Positions 1 to 30,226 of a DNA stretch of 64,000 bases are shown here, piece by piece. The translations under genes and the position numbers were made by a program. Position 1 is the first letter of the stretch; each line of letters starts with the position of its first letter. Below the pieces are notes generated by a model that saw only the letters and a list, made by a program, of their open reading frames with translations, did not search any database and was not told the origin of the DNA. The stretch covers positions 186,001 through 250,000 of the forward strand of contig CP087206.1 in the NCBI GenBank assembly GCA_020912385.1, read 5' to 3'. The stretch is from Neofusicoccum parvum (lineage: Eukaryota; Ascomycota; Dothideomycetes; Botryosphaeriales; Botryosphaeriaceae).

Positions 1-257
1 GCGTGGACACGTCTGCGGACCCCGACGCGTTCAAGTGGAAGGTGCACGTGGAGCACTGCTTCGAGTACCTACGTCAAGGCATTTCCTGCGGCGGAGACCT
101 GATCATCGAAGGCAACAGCCCGATCAAAGTCGGCAAAGGGCACGCGACATCAGTGACGGGGTGGGGGGTGGAGCACGAATGCATAGATTTCGACCGACTA
201 CGCCGCTTCCAGATCGACCAGGAAGCCAAGTACAACCAGACCTGGCAGGCCGTGTAG
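1..257 (+). CDS. UstYa/DUF3328-family oxidase, C-terminal part (5' end outside window)
   Basis: The frame is open from the window edge to a TAG at 255-257, so this is the 3' end of a longer gene. The visible part holds the second half of the UstYa (DUF3328) signature. It has an HVEHC motif followed by FEYLRQ and a Cys-Gly-Gly-Asp turn. A further GWGVEHEC-DFDRLRRF block matches the conserved C-terminal His/Cys region of the family. UstYa-family proteins are membrane-tethered oxidases that crosslink or otherwise oxidise peptide cores in ustiloxin-, phomopsin- and asperipin-type pathways. The upstream HxxHC motif and transmembrane anchor lie outside the window. A second UstYa-like gene at 1206-2079 and a repeat precursor at 5074-5967 support a RiPP tailoring role. 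The family call is firm; the substrate is inferred. Confidence 0.85.
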   Translation, partial: VDTSADPDAFKWKVHVEHCFEYLRQGISCGGDLIIEGNSPIKVGKGHATSVTGWGVEHECIDFDRLRRFQIDQEAKYNQTWQAV

Positions 258-329
258 AACAAATCCATAGACACGAATTATCTCTCTAGAACAAAATCTC
301 AATTCCCGCATCACACTTTACAATAAACC

Positions 330-950
330 CTAAAAACCATACACCCCCAAATCCCCCTCCATCCCCCCCCTCACCCACACCGCGCCCTCCACGCCCCCAA
401 ACACCCGCAGCGCCCTCACGCCGCGATCCTCGAACCCCAGCCGCCTGAACACGCCCTTGGAGCCCTCGTTCGCGGGGTCGAACAGGCCCAGCACGTCGCG
501 CACGCCCCTCTCCTCCTCCGCCCACGCCAGCAGGCCCCGCGCCGCCTCGGTCGCGTAGCCCCGACGCGTCTGGGCGGGCAGGATCGCGAAGCCCAGGTCC
601 GGCGCGGCGTAGGCGTTGGGCGGCTCGCCGCGCATGAGCGACACGGTGCCGATGGGCGTGCTGGCGGCGAGGAGCGTGGGGAAGTCGGAGGTGGTGGGTG
701 GGTTGGCGGGCTTGCGGCTGACGAGCAGCGTGCCGTAGCCGTTGCGGGCGTGCTCGGCGCGGAAGCGGTTGGTGAGGAGGGCCTCAGCGGCGGCGCGGGT
801 GGTGATGGAGGTGGGTTTGCCGCCGATGGAGGCGATGAAGGCGGGGGTGTTGTAGAGGGTGACGAGGAAGTCGCAGTGGGCGGGGTTGGAGGGTTGGAAG
901 TAGGAGAGGTAGAGGCGCGGGGTGGAGATGTGGAAGTTGGGGTCCGTCAT
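330..950 (-). CDS. GNAT-family N-acetyltransferase (RimJ/RimL-like)
   Basis: A single-exon 206-aa protein; the start is the first Met after an in-frame leader that looks non-coding. The N-terminus has the ISTPRLYL-type opening of Acetyltransf_3 proteins. The acetyl-CoA site is visible as LPAQTRRGYATEA, followed by ARGLLAWA and the ANEGSKGVFRRLGF region that forms the end of a GNAT fold. The predicted reaction is transfer of acetyl from acetyl-CoA to an amine. The gene lies between two UstYa-like genes, so it could N-acetylate a peptide product, but it could equally be an unrelated neighbour. No signal peptide is seen, so a cytosolic location is expected, unlike the secretory-pathway enzymes around it. 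Confidence 0.8.
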   Translation of the reverse strand: MTDPNFHISTPRLYLSYFQPSNPAHCDFLVTLYNTPAFIASIGGKPTSITTRAAAEALLTNRFRAEHARNGYGTLLVSRKPANPPTTSDFPTLLAASTPIGTVSLMRGEPPNAYAAPDLGFAILPAQTRRGYATEAARGLLAWAEEERGVRDVLGLFDPANEGSKGVFRRLGFEDRGVRALRVFGGVEGAVWVRGGMEGDLGVYGF

Positions 951-1205
951 TGTGTCTGAGGCTGGTTGTTTTGCTTTGTGGGGGGCTGCTGGAGGCGGAG
1001 TGGCTTTTGGGGGTGGGAGCTGGGTCCGGGGAAGGATGGTGTATTTATGTAGCGGGCATGGCTCGCCTGAGTCATGCGGTGGCACAGTTACCCGGAGGGG
1101 CATCTCTCAACGATAAGGTTGCATGAACTTTGGGGCCAGAACACATCAATTTGCTTGCTCTCTCAACTCTACGCTACAGGACACAGCCAGCAGAAACAAG
1201 AACCC

Positions 1206-2079
1206 TCAATCCTCGTGCTCCTCGTTGTCGAAGTGGTTCCGGTGGCCCGGGGTGTGGGTGACCTTCCCGCCCGTGTAGCCAGACCCATGCACCTTGTCCG
1301 AACGGTGCTCGTACGCCCAGCTGAACACCTTCTCGAAGTCGCGGCATTGGTGGGTAGCGCCCATGCCGTTGATGCCAACCTTGGTCAGCGGCTCAAAGGT
1401 GGTGTCGCCGGCGCACATGATGGCCTGGCGGATGTAATCCAGGCAGTGGTCGCGGTGGAACACGATTTCCTCGGCGGACATCTCGGTGATGCCCTCGGGG
1501 TAGTATGCAAAGCGGAGGAAGTTCAGGCAGTGTAGCTGGTGGAACATCGACACCCCGTACACCTTCGCCGTGTCCGGCGAGTTTGGAGCTGGGAGCGATG
1601 CGGGCAGGTTCGCCGTGAACTCGTTGGGGATCTCCACAATGCCGTCGCCCGGAGGAGACAGTCGCTGCCACATCTCGTCCGTTGCGTTTGACGGCGCCCC
1701 GCCGTAGTACGAGTGCGGCTGGAACGTCACGCGGCTGCTGTAGAGCACTGCGCTTTGTTAGAGATATCTCGGCGGGGGATATTGAAGTATGCTTACGATC
1801 GGGCTCGAAATGGTCTGTCTCAGGCGTTGTGTCGCAACGGAGGCTCTTGAGAAGCACCAGGACGTGGCCCCAGACAGAGAGCCCGCCGATGAACAAGAGG
1901 ACATTGAATGCAAGTGCTGCCACCCTCCAGTTCAGCCAGCGGCCAGTCTTCTTGGGGCTCTTGAAGCCGCGCTCGCCGTCGAGAAGGAATTGCTTGTCCT
2001 CGTCCATCGTACTTGACGACGCGCTTGACAGCTGTTCTTCCGACGAGAGACGGGCCTGTTGAGTCTTGAACTTGTACAT
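1206..2079 (-). CDS. UstYa/DUF3328-family membrane oxidase
   Basis: Two exons (2079-1797 and 1747-1206) joined across a 49-nt GT-AG intron with a CTAAC branch site give 274 aa. A cytosolic N-terminus of about 50 residues is followed by one transmembrane segment near residues 53-78. The lumenal domain holds the two family motifs, HQLHC at 164-168 followed by a YPEG turn, and HRDHC at 192-196 followed by LDYIRQAIMC. A third His/Cys block, HQCRDF, lies at about 227. In ustiloxin, phomopsin and related pathways such proteins perform oxidative macrocyclisation of a Kex2-released peptide. The gene is divergent from the prolyl hydroxylase at 2744 with 664 bp between them, so the two may share a promoter region. 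The family assignment is strong; the reaction is inferred. Confidence 0.9.
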
Positions 2080-2743
2080 GGTGATGCGGGGGTGCCAAAG
2101 AGAATCGAGTGTGCAGGAGAAACGGTGGTTCTGAGGGCGAGGGGAAAGGCAGAGCAAGCGCAGCTCAAGAATGCAGCGTCCCGAAATAGATGCTTATCGC
2201 CATCGCGCGCACTGTCGGGCTGGCCGAAAAGGTGCCATGGCCGCTCAAACGACCCAACAGCGCTCACAAGCCTATAGACGCCCAAGTAGGAAAGTGAGAC
2301 AAAAACCCGGGCCGAACGAGCGATCTGGTAGGAAGCAAGATGCAAGCAGGCCCATGCTAGCGCTGACGGAGGATTTGGGAACGGACCGCGCAAGCGATTC
2401 GTGGAGAGCGCCTGGCCGGACTACCCCATGCGGTAGGATGCTCGCCAGCGCCACCGCCCCTAAGCCCCCAGCTCACGGTCCGCCGCTGCAATCCTTCAGC
2501 CCCACACCGTTGATCTCGCGCGCACTGGCGCCGTCAGCAGAGTCCCTGCGTCTGCAAGTGGCTTGCGAAGGGGCCGTGGTGCTGGTGCATGCCCGCTTTT
2601 ATGCTCAGATGTGCATGGCGGGGTGCAAGACCAGAGATATCAGTGAGCACTCCGCGGCTGTCGCAGCACCCCGCACCGTGCACTCAACATCCCACTTCCT
2701 CATTCCACCTCTCTCGGTGTATTGCTCCAAGTCAATTGTCACA
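2080..2743. promoter_or_regulatory. Shared upstream region of divergent UstYa-like and prolyl hydroxylase genes
   Basis: These 664 bp separate the start codons of two divergently transcribed genes. Open frames here are extensions of the neighbouring exons and show no family features. I could not single out a confident TATA box or factor site. Joint regulation is an inference from the head-to-head arrangement. Confidence 0.45.
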
Positions 2744-3649
2744 ATGGCCACTTCAACGCCTCCTCCCACCGCCGCAAAGTCGTCGTCCAAGCTCACGACG
2801 GCGGCAATGCTGCTCCCTCTGCTTCCATTTGGCTTTCTGCAATGGCAGAACATCAGCTCCAAATTCGGGCTGGGCAACGTCGACATCTCAATGCCGTCCT
2901 TCTCGCACGCACCAGCCAGCAACGCCACGCGCTTCGAGACCATGGCAGCGCAGTACGCGGCAGGCTGCCCGGCGCACACATTCAAGACGCACATCTTCTC
3001 GACCGACCCGCTCATCATCTACGTCGAAGACTACCTCAGCAAACCCGAAACCGAGTACCTGCTCGACCTGGCGGTGCCGTACTACCGGCAGTCGCCGGTG
3101 TCCAAGGGCTACCAGCTGGAAGCGTACGACCGCGAGATCCGGTCGTCGATGTCGGCGGTGGTGCCGGACGACCCGGTGGTGTCGTGCATCGAGGCGCGGT
3201 CGGTCGAGTTCCAGGGCTACATGCCGACCGCGCACCTGGAGGACATCCAGGTGGTCAAGTACGGCGTCAGCGACCACTTCCGCCCGCACTTCGACTGGTT
3301 CGAGGGCATGGCCAACCCGCGCCTCTCGACCTTCTTCGTCTACCTGGCGTGCGACGACGAGAGCGGCCCCGACGGCGCCGCGTGCGAGGGCGGCGCCACC
3401 CAGTTCCCGCACTACGAGGGCCGCTTCCCTGCCAGGTGGTGCGAGTTCATCGACTGCGAGGACGACTCCGGCGTCGGCGGCGTGGCGTTCAAGCCTGCGG
3501 TTGGCAACGCGGTGTTCTGGGAGAATCTGTACCCCAATGGCACCGGGCACCCTGGCGTGTGGCATGCGGGGATGCCGGTGAAGAAGGGCAGGAAGGTGGG
3601 GTTGAACATCTTCACCAGGCGGGACAAGTGGGTGCCTGAGCAGTCGTGA
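2744..3649 (+). CDS. Prolyl 4-hydroxylase-type Fe(II)/2-oxoglutarate dioxygenase, membrane-anchored
   Basis: A single-exon 301-aa protein; the start at 2744 is preceded by ACA and opens a Ser/Thr/Pro-rich segment, then a hydrophobic anchor at about 18-33. The P4Hc fold follows. The iron ligands are H182 and D184 in the PHFDW motif and H274 in VWHAG, and K285 in the KKGRKVG strand fits the 2-oxoglutarate carboxylate binder. A Cys-containing insertion (about 204-240) lies between the HxD and distal His. The family hydroxylates prolyl residues in the secretory pathway. It lies 1.4 kb upstream of a repeat precursor whose core segment carries a conserved Pro two residues before Tyr. It could therefore act on the precursor, although a housekeeping role is not excluded. 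Confidence 0.88.
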   Translation: MATSTPPPTAAKSSSKLTTAAMLLPLLPFGFLQWQNISSKFGLGNVDISMPSFSHAPASNATRFETMAAQYAAGCPAHTFKTHIFSTDPLIIYVEDYLSKPETEYLLDLAVPYYRQSPVSKGYQLEAYDREIRSSMSAVVPDDPVVSCIEARSVEFQGYMPTAHLEDIQVVKYGVSDHFRPHFDWFEGMANPRLSTFFVYLACDDESGPDGAACEGGATQFPHYEGRFPARWCEFIDCEDDSGVGGVAFKPAVGNAVFWENLYPNGTGHPGVWHAGMPVKKGRKVGLNIFTRRDKWVPEQS

Positions 3650-4907
3650 TGGATTTCGAGACGTAGTCATGTGCAGAATTACAGTGTTGCGGGATAGAAT
3701 CAATTGAAATGGCTTTTTTTTTTCTCTACAATTGCAATCAGTTGAACACTTGGTGACTACCCGGAGGACGAACGCCTGCCGTTGTCAAAAGCGCGCAACA
3801 ATGGCATGAGCTTCAATGCCCTAGCGCAGTCTGCATAATTCGCTGCGAGATGGAATTCCCGCATCGCCTTCACAATTCGCTCTCGCGTCCCCGCGCTATC
3901 GAACGGCCCTCTCACCGGCCATAACGGACGCGACGGCAGGGGCGGGGCCACGCTCTCCGCGTGGCTGTTTTTGGGGGCCGCATGCCTGCCACTAAAATGT
4001 TGGTTACTTCTTATCGCCAGCAAGCATCTTTAGTGCATCTTAGATCTTGAGCCGCGTCTCCAAGCGCCCGGGGGCGTCAGCTATGGCGCCGCCGGGGCTT
4101 TACCACGGCCCTGGAGGATTCGGCCCCCAAACAGCTGCATGCGTCATGCACGCAAGGAGGCTGGCCGGCCGGCGCAAGCCAGCACATGCTGCCGTCCAGC
4201 CACAGCATCACCCCCGCGAGTCGCGTGCCTGAACTGCTCTAGGAGACGACCCGCCGCGCTGTGGGGCGCCAATTTAGCTGCGGTGCTCGAAGGATCTCAC
4301 TCAGCGCTTCTGGCCTAGCGACCAACCAGCCAATCGGAGCCCGACTTATCCATTTCCCGTTTCGGTAATAAATGATCACTCTATTGTGGCGGTATGCGTG
4401 GCTAGTCTTCCACCGCTCCACCGTCCTCCTGTCGCCAGCAAAGACGGCCATGAATAGAAAGATCAGCACCCAGGGATGGCCGGTGTGCACGACCGCAAGT
4501 CAGCTTACCTCCGCAAAGTGCTGCACATCGTGCTCCGCGCGTGGCCCGGTGCACAAGGCATGGACCAATGTTTCACCCGGTGTTGGTAATATCTCGGACC
4601 CGTTCGTCTACGCCCAATGCGGCAACATGAGTTCACAGAACCAGGTGTGCCATCGCGGAAGGAAGCCCACTGCCAGCCACCCAACACATCCACGCCATTC
4701 GATTCGTGTCTGATGCAACACCGACGCTCCGGCCGGACATGAACCTGGCCGTCTACCATCGGCCGCATTGGATTAGGAAGGTGAGACAGCTATCAACGTC
4801 GAAGTCTGGATCGTCAGTCAATCGGAGGCCCGGGGTGAATGCCGCGAGTGTGAGCAGCACGGTGACTGGACAACGACAACCGAGCCGCCAGCCCTGAAGC
4901 CGAGAAA
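3650..4907. other. Intergenic region upstream of the RiPP precursor
   Basis: About 1.26 kb with no convincing gene. A T-rich run at 3713-3723 probably belongs to the 3' region of the hydroxylase gene. Short open frames on both strands show no family features or consistent codon bias. The segment should contain the distal promoter of the precursor. Confidence 0.5.
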
Positions 4908-4914
4908 TATAAAA
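4908..4914 (+). promoter_or_regulatory. TATA box of the RiPP precursor gene
   Basis: TATAAAA lies 166 bp before the precursor ATG. The sequence between them contains no ATG and includes a clear 5'-UTR intron, as expected for a strong, correctly placed promoter of a secreted peptide gene. Confidence 0.6.
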
Positions 4915-4986
4915 CCACCACAAGCACCAACTCGAAAGACCATCACACCACCATCCAGCAGTCCTCCCTTCACCCGAACCACAACC

Positions 4987-5042
4987 GTGAGCAAACCAAC
5001 CCCACCTCCTCCTCTACCACCGCCACTAACCCCACCCCACAG
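4987..5042 (+). other. Probable 5'-UTR intron of the precursor gene
   Basis: A GTGAGC donor at 4987, a CACTAAC branch site and a CCCCACAG acceptor ending at 5042 define a 56-nt intron in the CA-rich leader. It lies wholly before the ATG at 5074 and does not change the protein. Confidence 0.55.
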
Positions 5043-5073
5043 CACCCCCAAACAAGCCCACCCCGCCACCACA

Positions 5074-5967
5074 ATGAAGTTCACCACCGCCACCCTCAGC
5101 GCCCTCACCGCGCTCCCCCTCCTCACCTCCGCCGCCGCCATCGGCAACCCCGTCATCGAGATCGAGAAGCGCGAGCCCGCCGAGGCCGCCCCCGCCTACG
5201 TCTGGGCCTCCTCGGCCAAGGACAAGAAGCGCGACGCCGACCCGGCCGAGGCCGCTCCCGCCTACGTCTGGGCTTCTTCCGCCAAGGAGAAGCGCGAGGC
5301 CAATGAGGCGGCGCCCGCTTATGTGTGGGCGTCGTCGGCGAAGGAGAAGAGGGATGCCAACGAGGCTGCTCCCGCGTACGTCTGGGCGTCTTCGGCTAAG
5401 GAGAAGAGGGATGCCAATGAGGCTGCTCCCGCCTACGTCTGGGCCTCCTCCGCGAAGGAGAAGAGGGATGCCAACGAGGCCGCTCCGGCCTACGTTTGGG
5501 CTTCGTCTGCTAAGGAAAAGCGTGACGCCAACGAGGCTGCTCCCGCTTATGTGTGGGCTTCGTCCGCCAAGGAGAAGCGCGACGCCAATGAGGCTGCCCC
5601 CGCCTACGTTTGGGCTTCCTCCGCGAAGGCGAAGCGCGAGGCCGAGCCGGCCGAGGAGGCACCCGCCTACGTATGGGCCTCCTCTGCCAAGGAGAAGCGC
5701 GACGCCAACGAGGCTGCTCCCGCTTATGTGTGGGCTTCTTCTGCCAAGGAGAAGCGTGATGCCAACGAGGCCGCTCCCGCGTACGTCTGGGCTTCATCCG
5801 CCAAGGCGAAGCGTGAGGCCGAGCCGGCCGAGGAGGCGCCCGCGTACGTCTGGGCCTCGTCGGCCAAGGAGAAGAAGCGCGAGGCTGAGGCTGCTGAGGC
5901 TGCCCCGGCGTACGTCTGGGCGTCGTCTGCGAAGGCCAAGCGCGAGGCGGTTGAGAACAAGCAGTAG
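5074..5967 (+). CDS. Kex2-processed repeat precursor of a dikaritin-type RiPP (13 core copies)
   Basis: A single coding exon of 297 aa. A signal peptide of about 21-24 residues is followed by 13 tandem units separated by KR (or KKR) Kex2 sites. The segment APAYVWASSAK is identical in all 13 units at protein level, although the codons differ widely (for example TAC/TAT, GTC/GTG/GTT/GTA). Spacers after KR are DANEA, EANEA, EAEPAEE, DADPAEA or EAEAAEA types. The stretch between KR and Tyr is always 8 or 10 residues, rich in X-Ala and X-Pro pairs. This resembles the Kex2 plus dipeptidyl-aminopeptidase processing known for alpha-factor precursors. Neighbouring UstYa-like genes and a tyrosinase point to a cyclic-peptide RiPP. 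A pheromone or signalling-peptide precursor is the main alternative, but there is no Cys and no alpha-factor-like core. Confidence 0.9.
   Translation: MKFTTATLSALTALPLLTSAAAIGNPVIEIEKREPAEAAPAYVWASSAKDKKRDADPAEAAPAYVWASSAKEKREANEAAPAYVWASSAKEKRDANEAAPAYVWASSAKEKRDANEAAPAYVWASSAKEKRDANEAAPAYVWASSAKEKRDANEAAPAYVWASSAKEKRDANEAAPAYVWASSAKAKREAEPAEEAPAYVWASSAKEKRDANEAAPAYVWASSAKEKRDANEAAPAYVWASSAKAKREAEPAEEAPAYVWASSAKEKKREAEAAEAAPAYVWASSAKAKREAVENKQ
5148..5943 (+). repeat. Coding tandem repeat, 13 units of 57-66 nt
   Basis: The repeat array of the precursor. Most units are 57 nt (19 codons); units with a longer EAEP, DADP or EAEA spacer are 63-66 nt. Third-codon positions differ between units, so the amino acid sequence is conserved beyond what recent DNA duplication alone would give. 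Confidence 0.9.
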
Positions 5968-6201
5968 ATGGGCTGTATGGATGGGTTTGGGAATGTCGAA
6001 AATGGGGGGTTGGATGGGTTGGGCGGAGGGGTGGAGCGGACGACTTGGATGTAGAATGATTGCAATGGGAGATCACTGAACGCTGTTTGTTTGTGTAAAT
6101 GTGCGTGATTGATGGTTTACTGATATTTGCAAATACAATTAGACAGCTAAAGCTTCAAGACATTACAGTAACTGAGTTCCTCCTGCCTCCGCACTGCTGG
6201 T

Positions 6202-7590
6202 TTACTCGTACATGTAGCAGAAGGGACCGGTGGTCGTGTCCAGCAGCTCTCCAAGCTTGAACGTGGTGTCCGGAGCGACGTAACCAACATTCAGGACATC
6301 TTCGATAGTGCCGTTGCGGTGAGGTTCGAACAGGTCGTTCATGGTATATGGACCAGAGACCGCGCTAGCGCCGGCAGTGCGGGTCTCGGGGTCCTGCATC
6401 TGCCACATCCACCACACGCGGTCGATGTTGGCGTGGTGGGTGAAGAATGCCTGGTGATATTAGCACAAGAACGATGTATGTAAGAAAGACGGGGTACTTA
6501 CAGGGTCGCCAGGCGAGACGTACAAGTCACGGCCAGGGTCACCACCGAGGGAGAAGTGGCCGCCACCGTGCACACCGAGCTGATCAGTGTTGGGGTAGCC
6601 CTGCATGACAAACTCGAAGGTATAGATATCCTGGGGCTCGGTGAGCAGCGTGAGGACGCTGGACTCATTGGCAAAGCGCTGGTTGGAGTCGTCGGTCAAG
6701 CTGCGCTTGAGGCAGCGCGGGTTGTACTCGAACTTGTACGACGAGTTGTCGCTCTTGCCGTTCAGTATGCTCAGGCCGTCCGGGCCCAGGTTGACCGACA
6801 TGTTGACGAAGGGGCCAGACATCACGCAGCCGCCGCCGGTGCCGGGCGTCAGGTACGTTGGGTAGTCGGTGTCGCCGTTGACAATGATTTGGTCCGTGGA
6901 AGAGTAGTTCAGAAGAACACCGTCGCCAGAGAGGGATGTGGCACTGCCGTCGAACAGGGGGGATTTGGCCAGGCCGGTCTTTGCGGTCTTGGTCCAGTCC
7001 CAGTACGGCTGTGCGCCGGTGTAGTTGCACTCGTTGCGCAGGGCCTGCTCATATTCCCACGTGAACCAGCGATGCCAGCCAAGGAATTGGGCCTGTAATT
7101 GGTCAATGATGCGCCGTCAGCGGAAGACTTTGCCATGCACATACATTGAAATGAATGTAGTTCGTCTGGTTGATGTGCGCGGCAACCCAGTCATCGTACC
7201 GGGTCTTTGCACCGGGTGCAAGCGCGGACGGTGTCTTGGGCTCCGACTTCTGGAGACACAGGACGGCGTCGGTGTACGCGATCCTCTCCTCCGACGTCAA
7301 GTCGCCCCTGGCAGCCCCGTGTTAGCCTCCGCCCTAGTCGATCAGGAAAGCTTGACCTACCAGTACTTGCGGACCGTCACGTTGTCTTTGGTGCATCCAT
7401 TGGTGGAGTTCGAGCCGATCCTGGACTTGGCAACGGCGAGGGCGCTGTCAGAAATTTGCTCAAGTGTGGCGTTGGCCAGGTTCAGGAGCTTGGTCGACGG
7501 CTGCTCGGTAGCGGCTTTGAGAAGTGGGCCGGCTTCCACGGTGGCACCTGCAAGAAGCAGGGCGACATTGAGTAGCTGAGTTAGCTGCAT
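6202..7590 (-). CDS. Secreted tyrosinase (type-3 copper oxidase) of the RiPP cluster
   Basis: Four exons: 7590-7361, 7307-7145, 7092-6502 and 6450-6202, with three introns of 51-53 nt, give 410 aa. A signal peptide occupies about residues 1-20. Copper site A is seen as H121 (VAAH), H129 (YIHF) and H138 (FLGWHRWF). Copper site B is H306 and H310 (HGGGHF) plus the HHANIDR motif at 333-339. The family oxidises phenols such as Tyr to catechol or quinone. Tyrosinase homologues accompany UstYa genes in ustiloxin- and phomopsin-type clusters. The gene is tail-to-tail with the precursor, whose core has one Tyr, an obvious candidate substrate. All expected copper ligands are present, so the enzyme looks functional. 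Confidence 0.9.
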
Positions 7591-9595: not shown

Positions 9596-12500
9596 TCATT
9601 TCTGCATGAACCATGAACCGTGTAACACGAATGAAGCCCAGTCAAATGGAGCTCGTGTATCTGGACGTTTCTTGAGCCTGCAAATGGCTGCCTGGACGAC
9701 ACGGGCAAGGTCAACATTTAAACAGTCTCGAGACTTCTCCCTTGTGAGAGCATTGTTGAAAGCAGTTGTGAACGCTGCAGCTGTGTCCACTTTTACTTTC
9801 CACAGTGTTCCTGTGATGGAGGAAGCACCAGCGCAGAGGAGTGAAGTTGTAATTCCCAACGGCTCGTCTCCCTGGGAGTGGGACTCTGACGCTGACGCGC
9901 ATGCCATGAGCATCACATTGGAAGCCCTGATTCTGGTCTTGAACATATCCAGCGCTGTGAAGCGTGGTGATACTGTTGTTCCAGAGTCGTCGGCTTCCGG
10001 CGCAAGCACCAACCCTTGATGCAGCATGTTCTCCTGCTCGAAGTCACAGTGACCGAAAAAGTACACAAAGTCTGCGTCGAAAGCCTGGGAGACGGATGAT
10101 AGCGAAGCTTCGTTTCCGAATAGGGAAGACGATCCCGGGTTTTTAGTGGCGATCTTGCGGATAGATGAGTATATTTGGTCTCGCGTGGCTCTCTCCGATG
10201 CTCCGAAAGCCCCGGATTCCGTCTCTTCAAATACCGCAATGAAGGACCGGCCGATATCTGTAGCCGTACGCTGTCGATAAAGTTGTCTAGAGGCACAATG
10301 TTCGAGCGTCGTCATGCTGCTGGTGTATACAATCGGATTCCGTTCGATGAGGCTTGTGTCCGAGTTCTCGTCAATGATGGCTGCATGAAGTGGCATGCCA
10401 TGCAGCACCCCGGCCGGACAGAATACAAGCAAGTCACCATCGTTTGTCTCCTGGACAACTTCTTGCACATACTTAAACAGCTTTCGCAATGCTGCAATCG
10501 GGTTGTGAGGTGGGGCGTTGTCGGCGGTCTTGTTCTCGGGCATTTCATCCTCTTCCAATGGATGATTCTTTCGGCCCTCTTGCCGCAGGTAGGTTTTCTT
10601 CCACTCTGTGGCGTCTTCGACCGTCAGACCAATTGCTACCTTTTTGACTTCAGACTCGGAGACAATCAAGCAATGAATATGACCGTTAATGGCCACCCAA
10701 TCGACAAATACGACTCTGCTCTGGCCTTCGGCAGCCCTCCGTTTACCCAGATCCCGAAGACCGGAGACCGAAACGGGCTGGCCTTCTCGCAGATCTAGCA
10801 CCTTTTGTAGGATAGGCTTGGCCCGCATCTTCTTCCGGAGCGCATCGAGTTGCTTCTGCAGGTAAATCTTCTCCGAAGACTGCGCCTCTCCAATACTCTC
10901 AAGCAGACTTCGTTCCTGGTCCATCTGCTCGCGGAGCTCTGGGTGCTGGTCTATCTCGGAAACAAGGTCTGCCGGAAGGTTGACACCCAGCGCGAGCATG
11001 TCCGAGACGCTTCGGGCTTTCGACCTCTGGATCCAATTCCACGTGTTTTCATAATCTTCGACATGGTTATGCACTTGAATTGCCACGTCATATACGGCCT
11101 GTGCATTGTCGTCCCTCCGCAGCGCTTGCTTGGCAAGCACAGCCCGCTCTGGCTTCAGCGCTGCCATGTCACACCGCTCAATTGTCGCCAGCGTCTCAGC
11201 TTCCTCGACGTATTTCAACGTCATTTGCATCGGCGATGTGGTGCTCAATCCGAACCATGTCTTCACAAGAACACCCTGTTGAAGACCTCTGTACCAGAGC
11301 AGCATGAGGAGTCGCGTGATCATCTGCTCAGACCCAAAATTGCCAGTGCCTTTCAGAAGGCCTTTTGCTTCCTCGTAGCTGCTGGCAGCTTTTTCGAAGT
11401 CGTCCGATCGTGATGGCTTGCCGTTGAATTGCCAGATGGAGTCGTAGCAAAGAGCTATGCTCTGCTTCGCCAGAGACATGTTGAACTTATGCCCGACATC
11501 ACGGAACATAACAAACGTTTTCTCGTGGAGCTCCAGTGACTCTTGCATGAGCTTCAGCTTGTCTTCCTGGATGGCGGAAAGATGCGACTCGTTGAACAGC
11601 AGACGCGCCTCGGTCTGGAGTGCGTTGATGGTCCAGAGGCTGGCTTGGGATTTATCCAAATGCTTGGTGGCAGAGTGGATAGCCTCCAGGCAAGGTTCTA
11701 TCAGACTTCTCGTCTCTTTGATTGGGCGCAGGTTCCAGTGGATCAGGTAGAGATTCGAGATGTGCGATAACCGCAGGACTTCATTGCCCCGATCCTGGAG
11801 AGAAGCTGTGTTCTTAATCATTCCTTCAGCCTTCTCGATCTCTCCGCGAAGCGCTGAAAGCTCTGATTCGTGATCCAATACCTCGGTCCCTCCCTGTAAG
11901 CGCTGGTAGAATGGGTCGAGTCCAAGAAGGATGACCATCCGCCGAGGTAGAACCTCGGGACGTCGACCAAGGCATGCCATAGCACTTGCTGTGTCGCCGA
12001 TCTTAGTGTATGCCTCATACAACTTCATCAATGTGTCGGCGATCAGGAACGGTGCTTCCATGTCGGACATATCGGCATACATTTTCTCGAGAACCTCGAG
12101 ACCCTTGCCAACGTTGGCACCGCTCTGCTGCCAGCGGGTGAAGTTGAGGTTCGTCTGGGAAACCCAGTCAAAGTTGTTCTTGCAGATGTCCTTGAAGCGC
12201 AGCAGCTCTGAATCGATCTCAACCAAGGTTTCTTCTTCCAGTCTTCCAAATTCGTGCATCTGGAGTTGGGCATATGCGCGAAGAGCGTCAATTGCCCCAG
12301 TCCAGTAGCCGACTTCTTCCATGCTCTTCTTAATTCCAAGTAGCTCCTCCCCAGCCTTCTGTGTGGAGGTCTTCGGAATCCGCTTTTCGAGAAGCTTGGC
12401 ACGGACGGACAGAATGCCGTAGGCATGGCCTACACTGCCGTAAATTTTGCTGGCCTCCTCCATATGCCCAACCCACTCGTCGCTGGTACTCGTCTCTTGA

Positions 12501-13242
12501 AGACACTCTGCGTACTCGATGATTGTTTCGGCGCGAACGAGATCGGGGACGTCGGGATGGTTCATGATTTCTCGGAGTAGCTTTTGTTTCGTGGCATGAT
12601 CGGTCTCGTCTGTATTCGTTCCGTGACCTGCGATACGAGCCACTCGAAGAGCCTCCGCATAGCGTTCTTCCTTAATCAGGAAACCGAATATCTCAAGGAT
12701 GATGGATGGCTCTAATGCCAGCACAGTTACATTTGGCATGTATCCGTATACGGTACGGAGGGCGCAGAGAGTGTGGTAGAGCACGGTAATGGACACCTAA
12801 ATTAAATGGTCAGATCATGAGTATTAAATGCTAACGCTGGCTTACTCACGGCTCTCTTGTTATATTGCTCAATAGCTCTGCCTTCGATCTGTTCATGGAA
12901 TATTCGTTGAAGGGTGTCTATCGAACTCCCGAATTTGACTTCACCAATCACAGTGACCGTGGCCTTGAGCATATCGTATAGAGCGACGCAGATTTTGTCG
13001 GCGTCTTGATGATCGAGAAGCTTTGAAAGCTCCTCGAGCTTCTCACGAGAGTCCCCGATGAGTCCTTGCTCTACCTTCATGGAAGCATACTCCAGAATAA
13101 GGAAACAGTCCTTTTGATCTGAAGCTGCAAGCTTTTCGTACAGTACTGCGGCTTTGTTGTAGAAGCCGAGGTCACGGAGGCGCTGCGCCTCGTGAATTTC
13201 GGCACGTCTTGGATCTGTCGACATTTCCACGTTACTCTGCAA
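9596..13242 (-). CDS. Helical-repeat (TPR-like) protein with C-terminal CHAT caspase-like protease domain
   Basis: Two exons (13242-12850 and 12796-9596) joined across a 53-nt intron give 1197 aa; a start at 13224 is an alternative. The first 800 or so residues are helical and TPR-like, with repeated YxxA, LxxA and WxxA patterns. The C-terminal third is a CHAT domain. The catalytic His lies in VYFFGHCDF and the catalytic Cys in NVMLMACAS, followed by the GITTSLLCAGASSITGTLWKV block typical of CHAT. CHAT proteins are caspase/separase-related peptidases. TPR-CHAT proteins act in prokaryotic CRISPR-associated and gasdermin defence, and fungal CHAT proteins occur near cell-death effectors. It is divergent from the gene at 13565. 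Protease activity is inferred from an intact dyad. Confidence 0.85.
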
Positions 13243-19449: not shown

Positions 19450-20320
19450 TAGTAAAGCCGACGCTTCCGACGACAGAAACGAAGCCAACCATTCCTTCAA
19501 CTCAGAGTAGGGAAGCACTCGACCTCTATAGAATCAAGCTGAAGGAGTATAAGGAGTAGAAGAGATCTCTCAATGATCTTTCAGACCTCATTAAAGACTC
19601 TGTTACCTCCTATCTTCTTCCAGTCCTTCGCGGAGCCGAGTCCTCCTCTCCCTATCACTACCTAAAGGTCCTAAAGCAGCATATCGCTCCTTCAGATTTC
19701 CTCACGCGCCAGACCCTCGTTCTACAACTCGACGAGTTGAGGAAGCCTCCTAAGCGTCAGAACATTCTCAAGTGGCTTTCTGAGTGGGAGAATCTCGCCC
19801 GTAGGGCGAAGGTCTATGAGTTGCCACACGTGAACGGTAACGACGGTGCCATTGCATTCCTTACTGCATTATCGCACGTCGATTCAGAGTTCACTGTTGG
19901 CCTCATAACCGAGATTCAGAGAAACCCTACTAAGGTCCTTAAGATCACCTACCTAACGGAGCACTATCATCAACGCTACCGTACCCTTGCATTGGTAGAA
20001 GGGAAGTCTGTTTCAGCCTTTACTACTACCTTTCGTGGCGGAGAGCAAGGCAAGACAACTTTAAAGTGTTAATATAGTACCACTTATTAGTACCATGAAT
20101 GCCCTTACCTCAACAAGGACGCACGTCCTTCAGGTTGGATGCTAAGCAAGGAAGTACAAGCGAAGGTCGCTAAAGCCTTAAAGAATCCTCGAATTAAGGC
20201 AACAGTTAATGCTGCTATTTTACGGTACAAGAGCATCAATCCAACTCAGCCTAATACAGATAAGGAGCCAAAGCAGACCTCAAAGCAGACCTCAACCACT
20301 AAGGATGGCGGGTAGGACTC
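19450..20320 (+). pseudogene. Decayed copia gag region
   Basis: The longest open part, 19737-20072, encodes a copia-type Gag core with an LDELRKPP and WLSEWENLAR stretch. Upstream and downstream the same frame continues through TAG and TAA stops. A degenerate zinc-knuckle-like Cys/His region (about 20065-20110) follows, with stop codons where Gln would fit. It is non-functional. Confidence 0.75.
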
Positions 20321-20329
20321 ATCTAACGA

Positions 20330-23300
20330 CTCACGGCACTCCTTAGCTACGGTTATCAGAACAGCTTTCTTAAGCAAGAGCAGTATTGCAGCCACCACTC
20401 TTGAGCAGTTATAGATTCTCGATTCAGGCTCGTCTCATCATGTATACAACCGTCACATGGAGTATCGCTTCACAAAGACTCGTGATACTACTCTAAAGGA
20501 CACCATTACAAGCGGTAACGTCACGCTTCCAGTCACCTGTTTCGGTGACGTTACGGTTAACGCCATAGGACCATAGGGAATTAAGTCTCTTACATTAAGA
20601 GATATTGCTTACGTCCCTACCTTCATGGCCAACCTCATTTCAATTACCAGAGCCAAACGCAAAGGCCTAGACATGGACACTTACCATATGCACCTCCACC
20701 GCAAGGGTCGGACGGTCTATCGCTTCGTAATCCATCAGGATCTGTTCTTCATTAAGCTCAATAAGACAGATCATCCCCAGCAGGATTCAGGCAGTATCAA
20801 GGCAGGTGTAGCTATTCGTATACTTCCTATAGAAACACTGCACACCATCTTTGCCCATGCTGGTAAAAATACTATTCAAGCCCTTCTAGAGGCAACTGAC
20901 GGTATTATAATCCAGGAGGACACTTTATTGCCTCAGTATTATGACACCTACGCTCTAACCAAGGCATACCAATTGGTTTCACGCTCTCCCGCACATGAGG
21001 AGTCACGCAGCAAGCTATTCTTTCGAGCATCAGTCGACATGACTAGTATAATCCAGGCCTTCAACGGTGATCAGTATATCACGCATCTGGAGTGTACTGA
21101 GATCAACTTCACGCTGGCCAAGACCCATGCGCTCAAATTAGAAGTGCTAGACATCATTCTAGACTTCTTACAACTCCTCAAAGTTCGCTTTAATTGCCAA
21201 ACAGCCTTCCTACGCTCTGACGGCGAGAAATCGCTTGGTTATGCATTTAGTCAGGAGCTTAGAAGACGGGGCATTACTTGGGAGACATCATCACCTTACA
21301 CACCTCAGTAGAACGGGAACTCTGAGCAGTCAGGCCATCTCATCATTCTCAAGGCAAGAGCTTTGCGAGTAGGCGCTAACCTACCAGATCGCCTATAGCC
21401 TAAGACTGTCTAAGCGGCAGTATACATCTTCAATCGTACCCCTTCCCGCCGGCTAGGCTGGAGGACTCCATTTGAGTTACTTCATAGGAAGAAGCCCAAT
21501 ATCTCGCATCTACGTGTGTATGGCTGCAAAGCATATGCACTAGATAAGTACATACCTCGCACTGAGAAGCTCAAGGAACGTGCTCTTATAGGCTACCTTA
21601 TGGGATACGATTCCACGAATATTTACCGCATCTGGTTTCCTCCAGAGGATAGAATCATTCGTATATAGGACGTCATCTTTGATGAGAACTCAAGGTACTC
21701 CCCAAACCACATTGAGCACTATTATAAAGTGCCAGAAGTAGAAGAAGAGCCTCACACGCTAGAACGACTAAGAATTCACCTCTCCAACTCAGACACTAAA
21801 GATTCAGAGCTTGAAGGTATTACAACTCCTAATATAAGCGAATCTAAAGGTGAGGGGGTAGGTGCAGATACTACTAAAGGTTAAATGCCCACTCTAATAC
21901 CCACTAAGGATTCATGTGAGTCCTTAACGCCACTACAAGACGAGTCTCCAGGGCTAGAAACCCCTTAAGACTCAGGGGGTGATTCATAACTACCACAACG
22001 GCGTCTTCTACCTGTACAATACGACACCGATCCTCTCGCTACAGCCGAAGTTGGCAACAGGGCACCAAGAGCGGATATGATTTCAGGGTACTTCACACCT
22101 AAAAACATCATTCAAGGCCCTAGAACACGCCATCAACGCAGGGCTCAAGCAGCAGTGATTGAAAACAATAACTAGGACAACCAATCCTACCTCAAGGCCT
22201 TTATAGCGGGCCTCTCTATAAGAGAACCAATGCTAAAGATCCATAAGGACCAACTACCACCACTATCAAGCAACCATTCAGAACTCATAACGCATCCATT
22301 CAAGGATCAGTTTATAGAGGCCATGGATGAGGCTCTCAAGAAAAATGAGCATCAGGAGGTTTGGAAGAGAGTGCCCATTCTCAATACTAGGAAAGCAGGG
22401 AAGCAAGTCATCCCTCTTACCTAGGTCTACACCTATAAATTTAATGAGAAAGGAAACCTCATCAAGTTCAAAGCGCGTATCTATGTCAGAGGAGACCTTT
22501 AGCACACCTATTAGGACACGTACGCCGCTACTCTTGCCTTCAAGATCCTTCGCTTCTTGCTGGCAATCATTTATGTATTTAACCTCGAGATGCGTCAGTA
22601 TAACGTTATTAATGCGTTCCCTCACGTACTATTGGATGAGGAAGTCTATTGCAGTCCGCCTAAGAGCATAAACATTACTTTAGGACTCGTACTTCTTCTC
22701 CTCCGTGCCCTCTACGGTCTTAAGCAGTCACCGGCGCTATGGTAGAAACACTTCTATAAGACGCTCAAGAGCTTAGGACTACGCCCTATTAGAGACGCTC
22801 CATGTCTCTATTTTAATGACTATCTACTGGTTTTCTTCTTTATAGATGATGTTATTGTTGCTTTTAAGAAGAAGGACAAAGTATACGCCAACGCCTTCCA
22901 AGAGAAGCTCTTCAAGGTGTATGAGATACGAGTAATGGGAGAAGTACAGTGGTTCCTTACCATAAGGATCGTCCGGGACCGTGAGAAGCGTCAGTTGTAG
23001 CTTTCTTAGGAGTCCTATATCAATGGATTAATCAGTAAGTATAGCGTCAAGGACTACTCTTTCGCAAGAACCCCTCTCCCTACAGATAAGGACATTAGAA
23101 CGAATGATGATCTCGTAACAGCGCAGGAGATTCGTGCCTACTAAAGTATAATCGGCTCTATTAACTTCGCTGCTGTCTGTACAAGGCCTGATATAGCATT
23201 TACCTCCACACGGCTGTCAGAGTATCTTCGTAACCCATCTAAGCGTCATATCCATCTCGCTAAACGTGTCCTCTCTTACCTAGCTAGAACCAAGCATCAT

Positions 23301-26643: not shown

Positions 26644-28380
26644 TTACACGCCGGAGTCCTCCTCCTCGACCTCGTTCTCCTCGGCGTAGGTGGTCCAGGT
26701 CGAGCAGGTCGAGCTCAGGGTGTCGTAGTCGATCAGCGAGTCCTGGATCTCGGTATAGCGCTCGAGGATCTGCAGGGCGAAGCCCTCGGAGGTGTGCCAG
26801 CCGATGTGGCAGTGCATGAGCCAGGCGCCGGGGTTGTCGGTCTCGAAGGCGATGACGAGGTAGCCGGACGAGTCGAGCATGGCGGTGTCGCGGCGCGGCG
26901 GGTTGTCGAGGCTGAGCGTGGTGTCGGAGCTGTAGCTTCCGGTGCCCTGGGCCAGGATGAAGAAGTCGTGGCCGTGGAGATGGATCGGGTGCGGGACCGC
27001 GTTGTCGGTCTCGATGACGAAGAAGTACCACTGGTCGGCGTCGTCGAGCTGGACCACGCCAGAGGTGTCGGTGAAGGTCAGGTTGTCGTTGTAGACCTGG
27101 AGGAGCGTGGGGTCTTCCCACTCGACGTCCATCGAGGTCTCGTTCATGTACCAGCGGAACAGGTTTTCCGAGTTCTGGCCGACGGTGACGGCCTCGGCGA
27201 GCGAGGTGCCCGAGGTGGCGGTCTTGGAGACGTAAGGAACGAGATCGGAGACATCCTCATCCACACACGCGTCGGTGTAGTCATAGGCGGAGGTGGTGGG
27301 CTCGTCGGTAGAGGAGCCGTAGTGGACGATACCCTTGATGTTGTCGGCGTTGTCGTTGTCGGAGCAGGCAGTCTGGGGGATAGCGCGCATCCAGAAGTCA
27401 GAGGCGACGGAGGCCTGGTCGGCAGTGACGACGATGTCGTAGCGCTGGCCCATGCCAATGTCAAGAACGGTGGTCTCGTACGGCACAATGGGGACAAGAT
27501 CCATGGCCATGACGGTCATGGTGTGGTTGTCAATCATGAACTTGAAGTGGGTGTCGACGGCAGCGTTGACCAGGCGCATCCTGTAGCTGGTGCCCTCGGT
27601 GAGGTTGACCTCGAAGCGGGAACCAGTGACGGTGCCAGAGTCGTTGTAGACGTTGGTACCGTTGATCAAGCCGTTGTCGAGCGTGGGTGGGCCGCTGGCC
27701 TGAGCCGAGGCGTACAGCTCGTCGACAGTCTGGTGGTCCCAGTCGTTCAGGAAGATCATTCCAAGGTCTTCGTCGTAGTCGGAGGTGGCCGGGCCATTGA
27801 TGATGATACCTCCGAAGATACCCTCCCAGGCCTGCAGGCCAATGTGGGAGTGGTACCAGGACGAGCCGTACTGGGTGGCCTTCCACTCATAGGTGTAGCT
27901 GTCACCCGGAGCAGTCGGGCACTGCACAATGGAGACAACACCGTCGTTCTGGTTGGTGTAGTTTTGGCGGATGCCGTGCCAGTGGATGGAGGAGCCGTTG
28001 CCGCTGGTGGTCAGGCTGTTGGTGACATGGACCTTGACAGTGTCGCCCCAGTCGGCAAAGATGGTAGGGCCGGGAATGCTTCCGTTTACGGCCATGGCCG
28101 AGCGCGAGATGCCGTCAGGGGAGACAGTGACGTCGGTGAGCTCGAACCAGTACTCGCGGGTGACTCCAGTGTCGGGGCCATCGTTGTAGTAGTCGGTGCT
28201 GACGTCGTAGTCGCACCACTGGGTCCGGGTGGCGGCATCGTTGCCGGAGCAGGTGGACACAGCGCTGGTGGTGGTGGAAGTGGCGGTGGAGTTGGAAGAG
28301 GCAGAGGACGAAGCGGCCTGCGGGGCGGCAGCCGAAAGACCCAGCAGGGCGGAGGCCGCAAGGAGGTTGAAAGCCCTCAT
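26644..28380 (-). CDS. Secreted laccase (multicopper oxidase, ascomycete type)
   Basis: An intronless 578-aa protein with a signal peptide (MRAFNLLAASALLGLSAAA) and a Ser/Thr-rich N-terminus. All four copper-binding motifs are present: HWHG, WYHSH, HPIHLHGHDF and the C-terminal HCHIGWHTSEGF, which carries the type-1 Cys and His ligands. The chain ends in DSGV, the C-terminal plug characteristic of ascomycete laccases that is processed during maturation. The family oxidises phenols with reduction of oxygen to water, acting in lignin, melanin or phenolic detoxification chemistry outside the cell. Many N-glycosylation sequons are visible. Length and motifs are complete, so the enzyme should be active. 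Strong C/G third-position bias suggests high expression. Confidence 0.95.
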   Translation of the reverse strand: MRAFNLLAASALLGLSAAAPQAASSSASSNSTATSTTTSAVSTCSGNDAATRTQWCDYDVSTDYYNDGPDTGVTREYWFELTDVTVSPDGISRSAMAVNGSIPGPTIFADWGDTVKVHVTNSLTTSGNGSSIHWHGIRQNYTNQNDGVVSIVQCPTAPGDSYTYEWKATQYGSSWYHSHIGLQAWEGIFGGIIINGPATSDYDEDLGMIFLNDWDHQTVDELYASAQASGPPTLDNGLINGTNVYNDSGTVTGSRFEVNLTEGTSYRMRLVNAAVDTHFKFMIDNHTMTVMAMDLVPIVPYETTVLDIGMGQRYDIVVTADQASVASDFWMRAIPQTACSDNDNADNIKGIVHYGSSTDEPTTSAYDYTDACVDEDVSDLVPYVSKTATSGTSLAEAVTVGQNSENLFRWYMNETSMDVEWEDPTLLQVYNDNLTFTDTSGVVQLDDADQWYFFVIETDNAVPHPIHLHGHDFFILAQGTGSYSSDTTLSLDNPPRRDTAMLDSSGYLVIAFETDNPGAWLMHCHIGWHTSEGFALQILERYTEIQDSLIDYDTLSSTCSTWTTYAEENEVEEEDSGV

Positions 28381-30226
28381 TGTGGGCGGCGAAGAAGACG
28401 AGAAAGCAACGAGAGAGGGAGGGATCGAACAGAGACCTTCAACGAACGGAAGCCAGTGTTGAGGGAACGAATGAGGGGGAGAAGAGAGCGGAGGTGATGA
28501 TGATGGAGGGAATGGAGGAGTGAGGCACGGCGAGATGGCAAATCTTTTATCGTGAAGCTCAGATGCAGCAATGCATCTGCTACACTGCCCGACGAGGACT
28601 AAGGCATGCCGTATTCGCATGTGCGCGGGAACGCGTGGCGCTGCAGGCGGGCACGAGTGCCCGGTGGGCTGAGAGGGGACGGCTAAGGGCCGGGGCCCTG
28701 GCGCTATGATCTACAGCGGTATGGTGTAGCGGGCGGGCTAGGTAGGGCTAGGGTGGGCACCTTGTAGGAGTCTGATAGATTAGGGTGGCACTGCTGCGTT
28801 AGAGCAGCCAGGTACGGCCGAGGAAGGGACGATAGGGCGGACTGGGCGCACGGGGTGCGGTGATGGGCACTCGCGCCCGCTGCGGCGCATAGGGGCGCAT
28901 AGGGGCGCATGGCGGCGTGCTCCTCTCGCGGCGGCGGAATTTGCAAACGGCCCCAAACGTGCGGCGCTGCGAACCGGGACTGACTCGGGCGCGGCCGATG
29001 ATCTGCGTAGCCGGCGGCGCAACCATTGACGCGGCCTTGGCGGGCTGGCGGTGCGCGCCCTGAACGCGTCAGCAGCGTGCCTGGACAAGCCTCGATCAGT
29101 GTTTGGTTTCCCCGGCCTCGTTGGGGATCTCCTGGAGGAGAGGTCGGCAACAAGCTCCTGCAGCGCGGGCGCTAACGCGACGCGAGGCTTGTGGGCGCGC
29201 ACGCGGCCAACCGCTCCCGCTTCGGGCGTGGCTGGAGAAGCTCGCCCGTCTCGGCAGTGGCTGCCGAGGCGTCACTCTCACCGCGCCAGCCTGTGCCGGC
29301 GCGCGGAGGAGCCGCAACGGTGAGGGCGGAGAATTGGATCGGCGAATCGCGGGCTGCTCGGCGAATTCGCGCGGTGCGGTCTGGCGGCGCTGTGCTCTGT
29401 CGGCCGTTGTCGCTGCTGGCCGACTCAGGCGGCGTCGAGGATAGAGTGCGCTTGGCCTCGGATCCGATTGACAGCTAAGCTCATCATCTTCCCCGGCCGG
29501 CAGGGCTGAGCTAAACTTAGTCGTGGCTTGCTGGCGGTTCCTGGCCGCGTCGTCAGCATCAACCACCAGCTCCCTGTTCGCCCGTGCCAATACGCGAGCG
29601 CACGGAGTGTGGGCATTAATTCGGCACGCCTCCGAGCACCGGTCCGCTCCAAGCCCAGCTCGGGACTGCGTCATGCGAGCCCATCCCCAGCCTGCGCCCG
29701 GCTTACGTCCACCTTGAGCCGCCCGAACGCCTGTTTCAATGTGAGCCCAAGCCCCAGCCCGCGTTTACCGTTTGACTCGTGGCGCGCCGGCTAGGCTGCA
29801 TGTGGCCCATTGCGGGTGGGCCTCGACGCGTTTCTCCCTAGTAGGTGCCTAGTTCGTGGTGGTCCCGCCCGCCTCAGCCGCACTACAACCCGGCAGGGCT
29901 GGCGCAAGTGCCTTCGTGGCACGGAATCCAGAATGCTGCTCCTATTCTCCATGCGCACCGCCGCGTACGCCGAGTCAGCGTGATTGGCTTGTGCGAGCAC
30001 GTCAGGCACGCCAGCGCGCAGCTGTAGAAACCGGCCGACTTACGCACATATTCAGGCTCCCTCTCGCTCCTCTTCTTCACAGCCCTCCATCGACCCAAAT
30101 ATATGAAACGAAGGCCACCCTCTGTCGACATTGAGATCTTCACAGTCCACGAAGCCCATCGTTACTCCTTCCAGAAACTCTACCGCTACGCTCTTTACTT
30201 TTAAACGCACTTTCGTTGTAGCAACC
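28381..30226. other. GC-rich intergenic region with a short tandem repeat
   Basis: 1.85 kb between divergent genes. It is very GC-rich from 28600 to 29900 and has many long open frames on both strands, with biased composition and no family features; I regard these as spurious. A 10-bp unit (AGGGGCGCAT-like) is repeated at about 28884-28910. AAATATATG at about 30098 may be the TATA element of the gene at 30227. Confidence 0.5.

Follow-up and report, generated by a model that had tools for sequence, protein, structure and literature searches.

A candidate dikaritin-type gene cluster with a recurrent prolyl 4-hydroxylase/UstYa pair in Neofusicoccum parvum

The DNA described here (the window) is a stretch of 64,000 nucleotides from Neofusicoccum parvum, C1:186001-250000 of a 44-Mb assembly of 18 contigs. 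At its left end lies a candidate gene cluster for a ribosomally synthesised and post-translationally modified peptide (RiPP) of the dikaritin type, which extends from about 2.3 kb left of the window start to window position 7590. Seven genes are present, in the order (left to right) UstYa-A (-), UstYa-B (+), GNAT (-), UstYa-C (-), prolyl 4-hydroxylase-type oxygenase (P4H; +), precursor (+), tyrosinase (-). The three UstYa/DUF3328 genes are packed within 4.4 kb. Intron positions were set by hand on the basis of splice signals and of continuity with the protein families. Papers given by PMC number are cited for individual passages.

C1:183732-184615, about 2.3 kb left of the window, minus strand: UstYa-A, PF11807 1.2e-24.
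C1:185384-186257 (whole gene; last exon at window 1-257), plus strand: UstYa-B, 3 exons, 254 aa, HQLHC...HVEHC, PF11807 6.2e-31.
Window 330-950, minus strand: GNAT acetyltransferase, single frame, PF13302 2.8e-18.
Window 1206-2079 (exons 1797-2079 and 1206-1747), minus strand: UstYa-C, 274 aa, HQLHC...HRDHC, PF11807 3.5e-34.
Window 2080-2743: intergenic region between the divergent UstYa-C and P4H, 664 bp.
Window 2744-3649, plus strand: prolyl 4-hydroxylase-type 2-oxoglutarate (2OG)-Fe(II) oxygenase, single frame, 2OG-FeII_Oxy_3 PF13640 1.3e-8, HxD...H...K ligands.
Window 5074-5967, plus strand: Kex2-repeat precursor, single frame, 297 aa; leader 5074-5172, 13 repeat units 5173-5943, tail.
Window 6202-7590 (exons 7361-7590, 7145-7307, 6502-7092 and 6202-6450), minus strand: tyrosinase, 410 aa, PF00264 3.5e-59.

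The genes named in a preliminary description of the window were all recovered at their places, with Pfam matches for UstYa, GNAT, P4H and tyrosinase and with 13 cores between KR sites in the precursor; the right-hand cluster end, 7590, was correct. That description had also regarded the cluster as cut by the left window edge, with more genes possible upstream. Extension upstream yielded the start of UstYa-B (C1:185384) and the third UstYa gene (C1:183732-184615).

The precursor carries 13 KR-bounded units with one YVWASSAK core each, preceded by a leader of 33 aa that is signal-peptide-like by eye. The leader and the KR-separated repeats are those of a Kex2-processed repeat protein (KEP). No Pfam family is matched. 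The cores are identical in protein (13/13) and distinct in DNA (13/13); within the 8 codons, third positions vary in 6 of 8 cases and first and second positions in 0 of 16 (Fisher p = 2e-4). Such constancy in protein beside drift at third codon positions is a signature of selection on the peptide. The repeat is not due to chance, given its Tandem Repeats Finder score of up to 754 and this codon-position pattern.

Before the Tyr, untrimmed units have 8 residues (9 units) or 10 residues (4 units). In-silico trimming in the style of Kex2, Kex1 and Ste13 takes off N-terminal X-A and X-P dipeptides (Ste13 dipeptide rule from PMC6339444) and C-terminal K/R. It yields 15-mers in 13/13 units, with 6 residues before the Tyr and the single proline retained, since Ste13-type trimming halts before this proline in every unit. 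Shuffling of the six distinct spacers within their variable part produced a common start in 154 of 20000 trials. The predicted 15-mers read [N/A]E[A/E]APAYVWASSAK followed by one of E, A or D; an example is NEAAPAYVWASSAKE. By analogy with ustiloxin, further trimming towards the Tyr is possible.

The preliminary description had called the core unfamiliar, which holds for the product and not for the motif. No described product of a YVWASSAK core and no paper with AYVWAS was found in a literature search outside which most subscription journals lay. The predicted motif YVW[G/A][G/S] fits YVWAS in 13/13 units and is already listed, as conserved predicted KEP motif 4 in Pezizomycotina (Le Marquer et al. 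2019, PMC6339444), the only literature found in the same search to combine YVW, Kex2 and a repeat; there it is a predicted secreted peptide, and the section on the motif gives no enzymes or product. Relatives of the precursor were not detected at E <= 0.001 among 7994 scored candidates, which is weak evidence of absence with a repetitive query. YVW[G/A] sites number 221 genome-wide, vs 216 in the control, and among the first 100 of the 221 the sole tandem series, by eye, is the 13 of the precursor.

Two further repeat frames were observed in the genome. A Kex2-repeat-like frame at L035:7076-7363 (C10:223076-223363) has the core AWGGDLNAIDF x3, with a UstYa match (C10:221473-222018) about 1 kb away. 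A repeat-precursor-like frame at L036:2564-3073, minus strand (C11:82564-83073), has the core PQVRFVF x8 and lies near UstYa matches at C11:84062 and 86477.

HxxHC...HxxHC is present in UstYa-A, -B and -C. Close to the N-terminus of each is a single strongly hydrophobic segment (Kyte-Doolittle 1.97, 1.60 and 1.96, respectively); UstYa-C has one predicted membrane helix. The highest similarity is between UstYa-A and -B (36% over 249 aa, 150 bits), followed by B and C (35% over 156 aa, 77 bits) and A and C (27%, 55 bits). The nearest named relatives of UstYa-C are those of Neofusicoccum ribis (99% identical) and then Macrophomina and Lasiodiplodia (83%). A structure model of the N. ribis UstYa-C, built with 29 of 67 hits aligned, has a mean predicted local distance difference test score (pLDDT) of 65 and matches no PDB fold at E <= 0.001; by sequence, UstYa-C as sole query has no solved relative at E <= 1. 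The tyrosinase has a hydrophobic N-terminus. Its closest PDB match is the Aspergillus oryzae catechol oxidase 4j3p (7.3e-108); the histidines of both copper sites are aligned. Among at least 26 tyrosinase matches listed genome-wide it is the only one less than 100 kb from a listed UstYa match (at least 23 matches in 12 loci).

It is improbable that the repeat protein gives an unmodified secreted signalling peptide, alpha-pheromone-like, and that the adjoining oxidase genes are unrelated to it. With EA/DA and X-P dipeptides after KR, the units do have the Kex2/Ste13 layout of alpha-pheromones, a signature described as generally confined to these in Ascomycota (PMC6339444), and in-silico trimming works well. 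However, three UstYa genes and the one UstYa-near tyrosinase among the matches listed stand alongside. The core lacks cysteine and has a Tyr, a residue found in 65.6% of DUF3328-linked KEP repeats vs 38.2% of the rest (PMC7329392). A search of the genome with an alpha-pheromone pattern gave 0 matches; the pheromone gene itself was not located, so this result says nothing either way.

The GNAT has no strongly hydrophobic N-terminus, and no signal peptide was seen. Its membership of the cluster is close to an even matter. It could acetylate the peptide N-terminus, by analogy with bacterial RiPPs, for which N-terminal acetylation by GNAT is reported, and with lichens, for which it is considered (PMC12048977).

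In the P4H the HxD, the distal His and the 2OG-binding Lys are present. The structure model matches an algal prolyl 4-hydroxylase solved with a Ser-Pro peptide (E 1.6e-13). Among its relatives, PH[FY]D is found in 31/47 and the distal motif in 35/47 (simple patterns; many rows are partial). The P4H relatives (47 rows) and those of UstYa-C (67 rows) were matched by the size of the longest contig holding each. The UstYa-C group comprises 42 of the 67, cut after row P0089 (195 bits; next row 131 bits). HRDHC is the second motif in 39/42 rows of this group vs 0/25 of the remaining rows; both motifs are present in 38/42.

Seven P4H/UstYa-C relative pairs have contigs of exactly equal size: Apodospora, Rhypophila, Microdochium, Aspergillus clavatus, Pseudogymnoascus VKM F-3557, an N. 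parvum-labelled contig and one metagenome contig. Three of the named pairs are from Sordariomycetes, the others from Eurotiomycetes, Leotiomycetes and Dothideomycetes. All seven fall within the UstYa-C group (7/42 vs 0/25 of the other UstYa rows); a control with jittered sizes gave a mean of 0.07 and a maximum of 3 matches in 2000 trials. Locus tags are consecutive in 2/7 pairs (F5Y19DRAFT_445822/445823 and V490_05223/05224), and contigs of 86, 29, 21 and 6 kb indicate nearness. The N. parvum-labelled rows bear gene names of a Xylariaceae genome, for which reason these names look transferred by annotation. Because the pair recurs in other, distantly related fungi, the P4H is assigned to the cluster. 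The preliminary description had proposed both hydroxylase and acetyltransferase as additional tailoring enzymes; the former is backed by this recurrence, and the latter, favoured by position alone, is the weaker case.

A head-to-head UstYa-C-like/P4H-like copy is present at L033:899-3276 (C13:1991899-1994276), 16-19 kb from a TTAGGG telomere array. It adjoins retroelement-like (reverse-transcriptase-like) frames, by eye. Its P4H match ends short of the distal His, at query residue 200, and the first His of the second motif is absent from its UstYa frame. The copy looks degenerate, a subtelomeric duplicate of this very pair, and was dropped as an independent second P4H/UstYa association. The N. 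parvum-labelled pair, in which the P4H is without the HxD aspartate and the UstYa without the first His of the second motif, is taken as its counterpart by eye only. Joint decay of the P4H and UstYa copies would fit a joint job; the N. ribis-labelled UstYa row P0077, similar to the decayed copies, keeps both motifs, which speaks against that argument.

It is unlikely that the P4H of this same RiPP cluster does not tailor the final product, whether because its role is only to mark or stabilise the precursor or because it works for another secreted protein and simply accompanies UstYa-C. A product that begins at the Tyr, like that of ustiloxin (YAIG), would not include the proline, and 40/47 P4H rows have no equal-sized contig among the UstYa rows, though many such contigs are short. 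A tailoring role is favoured by the recurrence of the pair in four fungal classes and by the survival of the proline under Ste13-type trimming in 13/13 units. The missing metal-site residue in each N. parvum-labelled partner, as if the two were decaying together, points the same way and is weakened by the intact P0077.

Five features of dikaritin clusters (Ding et al. 2016, as quoted in PMC12048977) are a repeat precursor with leader, a tyrosinase, multiple DUF3328 genes, a methyltransferase and a transporter/peptidase. Three of them can be recognised in the sequence of the locus, namely the precursor with leader and repeated cores, the tyrosinase and the multiple UstYa genes. Of 7878 predicted KEPs, 22% have their genes close to DUF3328 genes; when DUF3328 genes are present, tyrosinase genes also accumulate around the KEP genes (PMC7329392). 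At the level of sequence, the dikaritin-type assignment of the preliminary description is well supported by the Kex2-repeat precursor, the several UstYa genes and the tyrosinase. The class is already known; new are the P4H and its recurrent pairing with UstYa-C.

The cluster is probably a dikaritin-type RiPP cluster with a recurrent P4H/UstYa pair, making a secreted, oxidatively modified peptide with its proline hydroxylated and its Tyr cross-linked. The precursor would enter the secretory pathway by means of its signal-peptide-like leader, and the P4H would enter it as well, where it may hydroxylate the single proline of the ...APAYVWASSAK... unit. The UstYa oxidases and the tyrosinase would link the Tyr of YVW oxidatively to a neighbouring side chain; in ustiloxin, formation of the first intermediate requires ustQ, ustYa and ustYb together (PMC6514808). 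The likeliest partner, by analogy with the Tyr and Ile linked in Tyr-X-Ile of ustiloxin and phomopsin (PMC7329392, PMC6514808), would be the Trp two residues on (i,i+2). Another cross-link, or none, is possible in the YVW core. Kex2 would cut after KR, a Kex1-type carboxypeptidase would remove K/R, and a Ste13-type dipeptidyl peptidase would remove X-A/X-P, with 13 near-identical 15-mers, perhaps trimmed further, as the expected outcome. The order of these steps, and any N-acetylation by the GNAT, are presumptive.

Several points weigh against this assignment. Among 22 flanking open reading frames (ORFs) scanned with Pfam, a subset of all ORFs, no methyltransferase and no above-cut-off peptidase was found; the only transporter is a mitochondrial carrier, unlikely to be a cluster gene, as is a CHAT-domain protein with a sub-threshold Peptidase_C50 match. 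The preliminary description had called the P4H a membrane protein; its type was borne out, and 'membrane' finds weak support in an N-terminal stretch that is mildly hydrophobic (Kyte-Doolittle 1.23). Pair contigs of 3.6, 2.9 and 1.0 Mb show co-residence, not adjacency. The correlation between P4H and UstYa-C distances is weak and does not count as evidence (Spearman 0.32, a value reached in 820 of 5000 permutations; nine pairs, one of which joins two Lasiodiplodia species, with truncated gene models among the rows). Nearness to a UstYa in this genome would, by itself, be no more than modestly improbable by chance, with a probability of about 0.03 for the P4H (5 genes) and about 0.09 for the tyrosinase (17 genes, estimated). 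As no precursor relative was found among the scored candidates, any tie of the YVWASSAK core to the P4H/UstYa-C pair of other fungi is conjectural.

That the flanking ORFs scanned hold no methyltransferase, above-cut-off peptidase or secretory transporter would also suit a decayed cluster from which no product is made. Such decay is very improbable: frames are open in the gene models, which also carry metal-ligand motifs, the 13 cores have remained identical despite drift of their DNA, and UstYa-C has relatives at 83% in Macrophomina and Lasiodiplodia.

A further proposal, tentative and rather doubtful, is a separate dikaritin subfamily in four Ascomycota classes, defined by a dedicated HRDHC UstYa clade and a two-oxidase module with the P4H, and making hydroxyproline and a Tyr-Trp bridge in YVW. 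In the literature searched, no paper joining DUF3328 with 'prolyl 4-hydroxylase' and no precedent for a UstYa-type fungal RiPP with hydroxyproline and a Tyr-Trp bridge was found.

Compared with ustiloxin B of Aspergillus flavus (ustA, ustYa, ustYb, ustQ and others), the cluster shares a Kex2-repeat precursor, two or more UstYa-type oxidases, a tyrosinase and a Tyr with a link partner two positions on, published there and presumed here. It differs in the core (YAIG there, YVWASS here), in having P4H and GNAT, and in that the P450, flavin mono-oxygenase and pyridoxal phosphate enzyme types of ustiloxin B were not found among the ORFs scanned. With phomopsin (phomA, phomQ, phomM, five DUF3328 genes) it shares repeats, tyrosinase and several DUF3328 genes; it differs in its YVW core vs YVI, in its P4H and in that no methyltransferase was found among the ORFs scanned. 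Asperipin-2a (aprA, aprY, aprR, aprT) likewise has a UstYa-type enzyme and a repeat precursor in a small cluster. It is without a methyltransferase (PMC6514808), and none was found here among the ORFs scanned. Tyrosinase and three UstYa genes are present here, and no reductase or secretory transporter was found among the same ORFs. In lichen RiPP clan R2, DUF3328 genes also have GNAT acetyltransferases nearby, but no repeat precursor was found there and the main text mentions no hydroxylase (PMC12048977, relevant passages). Biarylitides, which are bacterial and P450-made, are likewise described as having a very short core whose aromatic residues are cross-linked; they differ in enzymes, kingdom and precursor. 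Their cross-link spacing is i,i+2.

Few reactions are known for the large fungal family of UstYa enzymes, and the pairing of one UstYa clade with a prolyl 4-hydroxylase is concrete and testable. The YVW core yields a predicted peptide with calculable masses. If the proposed chemistry is correct, fungal RiPP chemistry would extend to proline hydroxylation and possibly to Tyr-Trp cross-links, and the P4H would be a second handle for mining such clusters.

By Pfam, the left neighbours of the cluster are a HET-domain protein (L024:5706-7496, directly left) and then family-92 and family-71 glycosidases; the right neighbour is a CHAT-domain protein (window 9596-12742). In fungi, both the HET and the CHAT family are associated with self/non-self or cell-death responses. 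At window 19560-21311, Copia-like retroelement fragments are seen by eye; the two frames have no Pfam match at E <= 0.001. Window 26647-28710 is a multicopper oxidase (laccase-type), and window 58095-60065 a GMC oxidoreductase.

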